From assembly GCA_016281355.1 (NCBI GenBank), contig JAEEIL010000031.1, positions 1 through 64,000 of the forward strand: a stretch of 64,000 nt of DNA, read 5' to 3'. The notes beneath the pieces were generated by a model. It searched no databases, was not told the DNA's origin, and saw only the letters and a program-made list of their open reading frames with translations. A program made the translations under genes and the position numbers. Below are positions 15,702-58,166 of the stretch, piece after piece; position 1 is the stretch's first letter, and each line of letters opens with the position of its first letter. Origin of the DNA: Elusimicrobiaceae bacterium (GTDB taxonomy: Bacteria; Elusimicrobiota; Elusimicrobia; Elusimicrobiales; Elusimicrobiaceae).

Positions 15702-17222
15702 ATGTTAACATTATTCTTTATATTACTAGCGCTACTAATAATATTACTCAATGCTTTTTTTGTGTTAGGGGAATTCGCTTTGGTTAAAGTGCGCCATACC
15801 CGTTTGCAGGAACTTGCTAAAAACGGTGGATACAAAGAAAAACTGATGCTCAAAGCACACGAAAATATTGATGAATATCTTTCCGCTATACAAATAGCTA
15901 TAACAATGACAAGCCTTGCCCTCGGTTGGGTAGGGGAGCCGAGTATCGGTAAAGTTCTTTCTTGGTTAATGCCAAATATTGTACCCATGCTCCCGGCTGC
16001 CGCTTTGCATATAATTTCTTTCACACTAGCATTTTTAATAATTACATCTTTACATGTTGTATACGGGGAGCAAGTGCCCAAACTCCTTGCCATAAAGTAC
16101 CCTGAGCAGGCCCTAAAATATATAATTGTTCCGTTACACTATTTCTATATAGTTACAAATGTTTTTAAAAACATGTTAGTTTGGGCAGCATATCAGACTT
16201 TAGATTTAATAGGTGTAAACCCTCATAAACAGGAAACTCCTCTTTCCCAGGAAGAACTTAGAATGATGTTTTCAAAATCTCAGGAAGGGGGGAAGTTTTC
16301 CTTGCGCCGCTTGATGATGTTTGAAAACTTGTTTGATTTCGAACAAGTGAAAGTCAAAGAAATTATGACACCGCGTGAAAAAATTTCCGCATTAAAAAAA
16401 TCTAATACTTGGCCGCAAAATTTGGAAATTATAAACAAACGCAAATTTTCCCGCTATCCGCTTTATACTGAAACTATCGACGACGCAAAAGAATATGTTT
16501 TAATTAAAGAAATGTCACTTGAATCTTTAAGTGAAAAGTCTCTGCAGCCGATTGAAGAACGTTTTACTTATAAACTTTTAACACTTGATGAACACACACC
16601 CGTTGAAGCCGCTTTAAGGGAATTTCAGACGAACAGAAACCATCAAGCTTTAATTAAAAATGATAAAGAGGAAGTTATCGGACTTCTTACTTTGGAAGAT
16701 GTTTTAGAGGAACTTGTCGGCGAAATTCGTGATGAATATGAAAAACCAAATGCTTTGTTAATCAGTAATTTTTTGGTGCCGGGTGCTTGTGTTATCAATT
16801 TAAAATCTACAAAAAAAGAAGAAGTCTTCGACGAAATGTTAAATGCTTTGTATAAACAAAAACCGACATTTGCAAAAGAACAGGCAAAAGAATTTATTTT
16901 AAAACGCGAGCAAATAATGTCTTGCGCTTTGGAAAAGGGTGTGGCTTTCCCACATGCCAGGGTGGCTTCTTTAGCGAAACCTTTGGTAAGTGTAGGTATA
17001 TCAAAAAAAGGTATTTTGTTTGACGGTACAAACAATAATGTTAAACTTGTCTTTTTAATTTTGACACCGTTTAAAGAGCCTGCCTTTCAACTTAAAATAC
17101 TTGCGGAACTAGCTGCGGTTTCATCTACAAAATTTGTGCGTGATAGATTAATATCTGCTAAAACCCCGGAAGAAATTGCTGAAATTTTTCTTGCTTTTGA
17201 AAATACTGTTCCGGCTGATTAA
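15702..17222 (+). CDS. CNNM (DUF21)-CBS membrane protein fused to a PTS EIIA-type domain
   Basis: The protein has 506 residues in three parts. Residues 1-190 form a CNNM/DUF21 membrane domain with about four hydrophobic segments and the family motif VLGEFALVKVRHTRLQEL; this family is linked to Mg2+/Co2+ transport or efflux. Residues ~205-335 form a CBS pair, opening with IMTPREKI and ending in EVIGLLTLEDVLEELVGEI. Instead of the usual CorC/HlyC C-terminal domain, residues ~350-500 resemble the EIIA-fructose/Ntr fold, with GVAFPHARV placing the phospho-acceptor His at residue 418. The fusion suggests ion transport gated by PTS phosphorylation and adenine nucleotides; this is inference. The gene is monocistronic between a leaderless promoter and a bidirectional terminator. 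Confidence 0.88.
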   Translation: MLTLFFILLALLIILLNAFFVLGEFALVKVRHTRLQELAKNGGYKEKLMLKAHENIDEYLSAIQIAITMTSLALGWVGEPSIGKVLSWLMPNIVPMLPAAALHIISFTLAFLIITSLHVVYGEQVPKLLAIKYPEQALKYIIVPLHYFYIVTNVFKNMLVWAAYQTLDLIGVNPHKQETPLSQEELRMMFSKSQEGGKFSLRRLMMFENLFDFEQVKVKEIMTPREKISALKKSNTWPQNLEIINKRKFSRYPLYTETIDDAKEYVLIKEMSLESLSEKSLQPIEERFTYKLLTLDEHTPVEAALREFQTNRNHQALIKNDKEEVIGLLTLEDVLEELVGEIRDEYEKPNALLISNFLVPGACVINLKSTKKEEVFDEMLNALYKQKPTFAKEQAKEFILKREQIMSCALEKGVAFPHARVASLAKPLVSVGISKKGILFDGTNNNVKLVFLILTPFKEPAFQLKILAELAAVSSTKFVRDRLISAKTPEEIAEIFLAFENTVPAD

Positions 17223-17297: not shown

Positions 17298-17942
17298 TTA
17301 TTTCATATAAGGTGCTTCATCAGCAATTGCTTTACCTACTAATTGTAAATATTGGACGAAAGTATTGTTTGTTTTCTTTGCACTTTTATCCGATTGTTTA
17401 CTATTTAAAGTTACACGGTGATTTGTAGCAACTGTGTCAAGATCTCTAACATGATTCGGTACTGCTGGGGTTGTATCGTGTCTTGCATCTCTTACAGCGT
17501 TTCCAATGGCAGCCCTGTGACCTTCGGGGCCGACATAAGGGTTATAATTGTTGCTTGTTTTATGAGTGCTAGAAACCGTAGGTGTATTTTGGGTTTTTTC
17601 TCTCTTTTCCTGCGGTTTAGCGGTTTGGTTTTTGCCGAGATTTTCAAGTGCCAACATATGTCCTTCGCGGCCGCCATAAGGATAATAGGCCGGGACCGGG
17701 GTTGTATCAGCCGGTTTTGCTTGTTGTACCGTTTGTTGTTGAGGTTCAACAGTTTGTTGATTTTTTACCGGGTTTTGGTCTTGCGGATTGCTCTCTTTAT
17801 GATTTTGTCTGATTCTTGCAAGGGCATTATCTGCGATATATGACATTTTACTGCCTGGGCCGCCAACATAATCTTGTGCTGATAATACGGCTGGTGTTAC
17901 TGCTACTAATGCTAACGCTAATACTATTTTTTGTGTTTTCAT
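17298..17942 (-). CDS. Small secreted protein with three PY-G-EGH repeats
   Basis: The protein has 214 residues with a clear Sec signal peptide cleaved after VLSAQ or nearby (about residue 23). The mature part holds three related motifs separated by Gln/Pro/Thr-rich linkers: DYVGGPGSKMSYIADNA (residue 24), YYPYGGREGHMLALEN (86) and YNPYVGPEGHRAAIGNA (133). The consensus is PY-x-G-x-E-G-H followed by a short helix ending in N. I do not recognise the family. There are no Cys residues and no membrane segment, so it is probably periplasmic or released. An AAAGGA site precedes the ATG, and a long leader with hairpins lies upstream. Confidence 0.78.
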   Translation of the reverse strand: MKTQKIVLALALVAVTPAVLSAQDYVGGPGSKMSYIADNALARIRQNHKESNPQDQNPVKNQQTVEPQQQTVQQAKPADTTPVPAYYPYGGREGHMLALENLGKNQTAKPQEKREKTQNTPTVSSTHKTSNNYNPYVGPEGHRAAIGNAVRDARHDTTPAVPNHVRDLDTVATNHRVTLNSKQSDKSAKKTNNTFVQYLQLVGKAIADEAPYMK

Positions 17943-18190
17943 TTTATTTTCCTTTATTTAATAGTTTCAGGTTGGCTATGCCTTTTCTTTAACGGGAAGA
18001 TTGACCGTTAAAAATATTATTTAGTTTCCCTTACTTACTACTACTCTTCATTTTATAGGTTAGGTTCGATTTTTAATATAGTTTTTTTGTCCTAACCTTT
18101 ACTACATTTACTACTTGAACTACTTTACTGCTTTACTACTTTTACTGCTTTAAATTTTTTGCCCTTGTTTATAAGTTGGCGGCAACCTCC
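17943..18190 (-). other. Leader/intergenic region with hairpins and a degenerate 8-9 bp tandem repeat
   Basis: Upstream of the secreted repeat protein there are two 8-bp hairpins: TTTAACGG/CCGTTAAA at 17988-18012 and AGGTTAGG/CCTAACCT at 18057-18098. Next to them are six degenerate copies of an 8-9 base unit, TTTACTAC on the plus strand, at 18098-18149. No convincing ORF is present. The promoter was not identified with confidence. Confidence 0.6.
18098..18149. repeat. Six degenerate copies of TTTACTAC
   Basis: Read on the plus strand, the units are TTTACTAC, ATTTACTAC, TTGAACTAC, TTTACTGC, TTTACTAC and TTTTACTGC. The array lies beside the CCTAACCT hairpin arm. Confidence 0.7.
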
Positions 18191-18224
18191 AAAATAAAAA
18201 CCCCGCTTTTTTATCAGCGGGGTC
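18191..18224 (-). terminator. Terminator of the 48-residue protein gene
   Basis: CCCCGCT at 18201-18207 pairs with AGCGGGG at 18216-18222. On the minus strand it is followed by TTTTTATTTT. The T-run exists only in the minus direction, and the hairpin lies about 30 bases after the small ORF. Confidence 0.88.
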
Positions 18225-18253
18225 TTAAAAAATAAAATTTAAAATTTGTTTTG

Positions 18254-18400
18254 TCAAGGCCTCGCTGTTATTGGAATAAATTTAATAAACATGTTAAGCA
18301 TAAACATACCAATAATAGAAAGGCTAATAAAAGAAACACCTGCGCTTTTTAAAACTAAAGCGTTGTCAAAATTTTTAAAATTTAAAGTGTTCTTTTTCAT
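18254..18400 (-). CDS. 48-residue single-pass membrane protein, unannotated small gene
   Basis: This ORF begins with ATG at 18400 and ends with TGA at 18254. It encodes 48 residues: a polar Lys/Asn-rich N-terminus (MKKNTLNFKNFDN), then one hydrophobic segment (about residues 20-42, GVSFISLSIIGMFMLNMFI) and a short tail. A consensus promoter (TTGACA-17-TACAAT) ends nine bases before the ATG and a minus-strand intrinsic terminator follows the stop, so the whole forms a compact ~210-base transcription unit. No Shine-Dalgarno is present, which fits leaderless translation. An alternative is a non-coding small RNA of about 200 nt using the same promoter and terminator. Confidence 0.62.
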   Translation of the reverse strand: MKKNTLNFKNFDNALVLKSAGVSFISLSIIGMFMLNMFIKFIPITARP

Positions 18401-18409
18401 AACAAAAAA

Positions 18410-18438
18410 ATTGTATAACATTTTTTTATGTTTGTCAA
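18410..18438 (-). promoter_or_regulatory. Consensus promoter of the 48-residue protein gene
   Basis: On the minus strand, TTGACA (18438-18433) and TACAAT (18415-18410) are separated by 17 bases. The predicted transcription start falls 2-4 bases before the ATG. Confidence 0.85.
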
Positions 18439-58137: not shown

Positions 58138-58166
58138 TTGACAAGGGCTGTATATCATTATATAAT
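58138..58166 (+). promoter_or_regulatory. Perfect consensus promoter, leaderless type, before the DUF1232 gene
   Basis: TTGACA (58138-58143) and TATAAT (58161-58166) are separated by 17 bases, and the -10 ends exactly six bases before the ATG at 58173. There is no Shine-Dalgarno. Confidence 0.92.

Follow-up and report, generated by a model that had tools for sequence, protein, structure and literature searches.

Regulation in the Elusimicrobiota is almost unexplored, and a short unit on the minus strand of an Elusimicrobiaceae contig (18191-18438) raises the question of what a promoter, an open reading frame (ORF) of 48 codons and a terminator in close succession are for. In the window, that is the whole stretch of 64,000 nt that was analysed, the unit lies between an [FeFe]-hydrogenase-type operon and the gene of an exported repeat protein (17942-17298), as an initial annotation had stated, and the existence of a promoter-ORF-terminator unit that length cut-offs would miss is likewise supported. 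The same annotation proposed that the unit encodes either a membrane protein or a small RNA; translation is indeed probable, but the choice between the two leaves out the best-supported reading, that of a leader controlling the gene downstream, whose peptide may act as a membrane protein as well.

Promoter, reading frame and terminator

The near-perfect promoter and the clean minus-strand terminator that had been described were both recovered (Table 1), and by reading of the alignment the counterparts of the promoter are TTGCAA-18-TATAAT in G004 and TTGCAA-18-TACAAT in G014, two other genomes of the genus. Promoter sites with at least 11 of 12 matches number six in the 64 kb compared to 2.75 in shuffles, and the 660-nt intergenic stretch that holds the unit has one such site where shuffles lead to an expectation of 0.026. 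The sole 12/12 match to a sigma-70-type promoter in the window is found elsewhere, at 58138 on the plus strand.

Table 1. Features of the small unit and of the gene downstream.
Feature	Coordinates	Strand	Remarks
Promoter, TTGACA-17-TACAAT	18410..18438	-	-35 TTGACA 18438-18433, -10 TACAAT 18415-18410; 11/12 matches
48-codon ORF, near-leaderless start, one hydrophobic stretch	18254..18400	-	ATG 18400, TGA stop 18256-18254
Region 1, GCCTTTCTATTATTGG	18309..18324	-	predicted to pair with region 2; folds in three species
Region 2, CCAATAACAGCGAGGC	18259..18274	-	contains the putative anti-terminator arm CAGCGAGG (18260-18267)
Region 3, terminator 5' arm, CCCCGCTG	18215-18222	-	
Region 4, terminator 3' arm, GCGGGG	18201-18206	-	
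Intrinsic terminator	18197..18226	-	11 pairs, 6 G-C, then a U-run; strong
Degenerate AG(T/C)AGTAAA repeats in the leader	18098..18154	-	length varies between species
Conserved structured leader RNA, 97 nt	17950..18046	-	ends at the ribosome-binding site
Exported protein	17298..17942	-	214 aa, signal peptide, YYPYGGREGH-type repeats; presumed controlled gene

The message would be almost without a 5' UTR because the -10 is only 9 nt before the ATG: with transcription starting 6-9 nt after the -10 the predicted 5' UTR is ~0-4 nt, which bears out the earlier remark that the ATG comes just after the transcription start. Among the start contexts of 44 long ORFs in the window, the genes at 15702, 24555, 36658, 38431 and 48282 lack a Shine-Dalgarno sequence and have their -10 5-8 nt ahead of the ATG, so a leaderless start looks ordinary here and leaderless initiation seems to be common in the genus. 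A frame that stays open for this length from the fixed ATG arises in 2.8% of dinucleotide shuffles, and its product (MKKNTLNFKNFDNALVLKSAGVSFISLSIIGMFMLNMFIKFIPITARP) has a maximum 19-residue hydropathy of 1.98, in keeping with the one hydrophobic helix that had been claimed. The transcript of the unit folds with z = -3.7.

Distribution of the unit

Orthologues of the 48-aa peptide are present in two others of the 18 genomes of the genus (G004 at 80%, G014 at 63%); the five remaining genera of the family have none. The exported protein encoded downstream is found in four of the 18, these being the same three and G013, whose contig starts within the leader (L040), and in all three genomes with the upstream side assembled the small unit is directly upstream of the exported-protein gene. 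What lies beyond the unit changes: the window has the hydrogenase, G004 a 470-aa gene between the hydrogenase and the unit, and G014 a type IV pilin-like gene. On the other side of the module there is always a CNNM/EIIA gene, and members of the genus that do not have the module carry different genes at the corresponding place.

No homologues of the peptide were found in phages, viral contigs, PDB, Pfam or PHROGs. Its size and hydrophobicity, the structured mRNA and the narrow distribution are what would be expected of a type I toxin, whose small hydrophobic peptide is controlled by an antisense RNA. The plus-strand antisense promoter-like site at 18211-18238 is however weak (9/12), with a -10 that is not kept in G014, and a position fixed upstream of one gene together with the lack of any match in phages or viral contigs also speaks against a toxin, which we consider most improbable.

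A number of apparent relatives of the unit were rejected. Against the families of Rfam 15 there was no match at the curated score, only weak ones, including an L10 leader match of 29 bits where the threshold is 44. An MFS transporter gene of G005 gave a match in its 5' region (E 2.8e-4), but what matches is a promoter and 5' UTR read in frame, with no similarity in the DNA, and this was put down to chance. A covariance model of the unit (R2) picked up AT-rich terminators throughout the genus at 27-40 bits, compared to 145-181 for true loci, and thus adds no members. Candidate paralogues on contigs C22 and C24 of G000 both proved to be the N-terminus of another exported protein (MGIKYFKKAISMILIMALLINTMPADLFAQ...), the end of C22 (L003) and the start of C24 (L005) having near-identical starts of this protein, and it is likely that the repeat broke the assembly there.

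Coding signal and constraint on the RNA

Frame-breaking changes in close relatives had been named beforehand as a refuting observation, and none is seen among the three in-frame orthologues. None of the three indels that separate the species breaks the frame, and translation of the ORF, with almost no leader ahead of its start codon, is therefore probable. The comparison of synonymous and nonsynonymous change over codons 1-48, suggested in the initial annotation, gave a divided answer: codons 1-20 look coding in the three species (dN 0.13-0.29, dS 0.69-0.85), whereas in codons 21-48 the synonymous sites are nearly frozen, with dS of 0.06-0.16 and dN of 0.03-0.19, about equal to each other; the neighbouring CNNM gene has dS of 0.98-1.68 for the same species pairs. 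Within codons 22-48 the conserved residues have identical codons in 23/23, 17/17 and 16/16 cases, against 14.5, 9.4 and 9.4 expected from amino-acid-matched resampling of the CNNM gene (P < 0.001 each); codons 1-21 show normal synonymous behaviour in this test, and in the CNNM gene itself no run of 28 codons exceeds 84% identical codons. The frozen synonymous sites indicate that in its second half the ORF is constrained as a nucleotide sequence.

These patterns bear on the possibility that the unit is a gene in its own right, coding for a small membrane protein on a structured mRNA and inherited jointly with an adjacent exported-protein gene that has its own promoter in the gap between them. 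An ORF that is in frame in three species, a hydrophobic stretch that is kept, purifying selection on codons 1-20 and a strong terminator would all fit with such a gene, but a near equality of dN and dS with frozen synonymous sites in codons 22-48 would not, and the last residues are not conserved, the peptide ending ITARP-stop in two species and ISARAL in G014.

It could also be that the nucleotide conservation reflects recent recombination between species of a 5' block and not a function of the RNA. The window and G004 are ~95% identical in the block between codon 21 of the small ORF and codon 35 of the exported-protein gene, with sharp drops to 62-68% on either side. Compared to the outgroup G014, however, the same block is a mosaic in which the arms, the terminator and the last 95 nt of the leader are nearly fixed and the repeats and linkers have diverged; furthermore recombination cannot explain the second genus described below, and it would seem a very remote explanation.

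Predicted alternative pairings within the transcript

The folds predicted for the three species agree and comprise a pairing of the start-codon region with codons 20-25, a pairing of codons 26-31 (region 1) with codons 43-48 (region 2), and the terminator. Covariation is weak for the 1:2 stem, as few pairs vary among the three species. The last codons of the ORF, CAGCGAGG, are complementary to the 5' arm of the terminator, CCCCGCTG, and for the best upstream duplex with this arm the three species give p = 0.010, 0.012 and <0.002. In the window this anti-terminator arm ranks second of 28 terminator-like sites and the terminator is the more stable fold (predicted at -18.8 vs -14.3 kcal/mol for the anti-terminator in the window, -19.9 vs -18.1 in G014), and on these grounds the arm by itself is only suggestive. 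Mutually exclusive 1:2, 2:3 and 3:4 pairings are predicted in all three loci of the window type.

A fold conserved in three species, constraint at the level of the RNA and a promoter and terminator of its own are equally the properties of a small RNA acting in trans, or of an RNA with a dual function, that contains an ORF by chance. Such an ORF would have to have survived three indels in frame, and to have arisen with the low frequency seen in the shuffles. There is no Hfq in the genome, which is 99.95% complete and where the controls were positive, so an Hfq-dependent small RNA is unlikely, whilst one independent of Hfq would be compatible with this. The unit is moreover always in cis to the same gene, and pairing of the RNA with the downstream leader gave diffuse long duplexes only and nothing convincing; all in all we regard a small RNA as improbable.

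The exported-protein gene and its leader

The unit occupies the position of a 5' leader, as the exported-protein gene is directly downstream on the same strand, across a gap of 255 nt from the terminator. No conserved promoter-like site (sigma-70-type) above 9/12 was found in this gap, which argues against a separate promoter for the exported-protein gene; the gap does contain a conserved TATATT/TATACT, which has no -35 and could be a weak or activator-dependent promoter serving that gene, as a free-standing membrane protein gene would require.

The gap also holds the conserved 97-nt RNA next to the start codon, the helices of which are a closing stem, an AGG/CCU stem, a 10-bp hairpin and a GGC-AUA-GCC hairpin. 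Its sequence hardly varies among four species, and five of 31 leader pairs are changed on both sides. The exported protein carries a motif, YPYxGREG(H/K)xMAL, for which a profile finds proteins in 20 of 90 genomes of the family, and the two members that were scanned have no Pfam family. Across this family of exported proteins (window 17298-17942; loci L100-L128) the mature parts diverge fast, and the signal peptides and leaders stay alike.

The same plan in a second genus

Four proteins with the GREG motif in a second genus, of gut bacteria, are encoded directly downstream of a leaderless short ORF that has a TTGACA promoter and a terminator. Starting with these four relatives of the exported protein and then searching with their leader peptide gave ten loci that are complete through the next gene, and all ten show the same plan; the leader loci listed for this genus are L103, L106, L122, L117 and L130-L140. 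Each of the ten has TTGACA, a -10 that ends 6-7 nt before the ATG and an ORF of 32-36 codons, in which TTTGCGAG is invariant at nt 79-85, near the end of the ORF. The order of the layout is a hairpin that covaries, the invariant UUUGCGAG, the terminator and the exported-protein gene. The terminator is 26-35 nt past the stop codon and its 5' arm, CCTCGCA, is complementary to TTTGCGAG, the anti-terminator arm reaching p < 0.05 in six of the ten loci. The exported-protein gene starts 27-44 nt past the U-run, and since this gap contains a ribosome-binding site and no good promoter (best 7-9/12), transcription of the gene should have to pass the terminator.

In these loci the 1:2 stem joins codons 5-11 to the TTTGCGAG region, and about 89-90% of cells pair, compared to 26-54% in slid-partner controls. 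Four pairs are changed on both sides (12 cells) and the covariation score is 0.191, neither of which was reached in 500 shuffles. Ordinary leaders precede some GREG-motif genes at other loci, and the layout therefore does not simply come with the protein family. The leucine codons of the peptides are almost all CTA; at three conserved positions they are CTA in 21/21 cases, where CTA accounts for 3.4% of the leucine codons of genes around these loci. This may be a hint of the signal, but the frozen codons may also reflect constraint on the RNA.

In the second genus the predicted succession of promoter, leader ORF, 1:2 stem, terminator and gene is how a transcription attenuator is built. In the window unit the parts follow one another in the same order, the anti-terminator arm likewise falls in the last codons of the ORF and the next gene is of the same motif family; the comparison between the two genera is architectural, since their leader peptides have no detectable sequence similarity. 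A plan that leaves no room for a second promoter, and that is kept with very different peptide sequences, speaks against a free-standing membrane protein, which we hold to be unlikely, if less so than a small RNA.

A putative attenuator leader

The constraint at the RNA level, the fixed position upstream of the exported-protein gene and the ten loci of the second genus together point to control of the downstream gene by this unit as its leader. We consider it fairly probable that the window unit is a ribosome-controlled transcription-attenuator leader for the exported protein, rather than chiefly a small RNA or the gene of a membrane protein standing by itself; for the second genus we would put the same reading more firmly. 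Confidence for the window is no higher because 255 nt, which include a second structured leader, separate the unit from the gene that it would control. Transcription, translation, competition of the folds and read-through of the window unit are all inferred from the sequence elements, the constraint, the adjacency and the second genus.

In such an attenuator RNA polymerase would start near 18403, and a ribosome would load on the nearly 5'-terminal AUG and translate a leader peptide of 48 codons. Were the ORF not translated, regions 1 and 2 would pair and the terminator (3:4) would form; a ribosome that had reached the stop codon would cover region 2, and again the terminator would form. A ribosome held near region 1 would instead leave region 2 free for the 5' arm of the terminator (2:3), so that the polymerase could enter the exported-protein gene. 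In the second genus it is a ribosome waiting at codon 11 that would cover region 1.

More tentatively, the Elusimicrobiaceae may have their own class of attenuators, with leaderless leader peptides that switch a fast-evolving family of exported proteins, to which the lineage of the window would add a second structured RNA by the start codon, which would give an RNA switch of two stages; translation stress may be the signal, perhaps, in the sister genus, how far a rare leucine tRNA is charged. If true, this would be a family-wide attenuator layout controlling exported proteins and not biosynthesis genes. It would also mean that ORFs of 30-50 codons beside terminators can be regulatory leaders, and that counting them as small membrane proteins is wrong.

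Comparison with known systems

The trp, his and leu type attenuators of Enterobacteria have a promoter, a short translated ORF, alternative 1:2, 2:3 and 3:4 pairings and an intrinsic terminator before the controlled gene. The same parts are predicted for the window unit, but its ORF is leaderless with regions 1 and 2 both inside it, a second structured leader follows the terminator, and the controlled gene would be that of an exported protein and not of an amino-acid pathway. Regulatory codons linked to the pathway are typical of amino-acid attenuators, although not required of all. The window peptide has no obvious regulatory codon, and none that is evidently tied to a downstream pathway; the CTA codons of the second genus are reminiscent of the rare-codon leader peptides of attenuators, but the gene downstream is not a leucine gene.

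Arrest peptides that monitor Sec or YidC, such as SecM, VemP, MifM and ApdA/ApdP, which carry a RAPP/RAGP-like or some other conserved arrest motif at the C-terminus (PMC10987492), resemble the window ORF in being short, upstream and equipped with a hydrophobic segment, and the ITARP-stop ending of the window peptide recalls them further. This identification was rejected, as there is no RAPP/RAGP-like motif, the ending is not conserved in G014 and the gene downstream is not secA, secDF or yidC but encodes an exported protein that has no Pfam family. The leaderless small ORFs of mycobacteria are also short, with 5'-terminal AUG starts in genomes where leaderless starts are common (PMC4633059), as is the case here; they belong to a different phylum, and unlike them the window ORF is separated from the next gene by a terminator and alternative folds.

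The 97-nt leader is similar to riboswitch-type leaders in its shape, that of a compact multi-helix element beside a start codon, and unlike them in that it has no Rfam match and occurs in only four of the 90 genomes of the family.

Finally, contigs break inside the leaders of L133, L145 (G080), L135 (G063) and L040 (G013), and G080 has two leader copies whose upstream sequences differ, which suggests that leaders are repeated within genomes.
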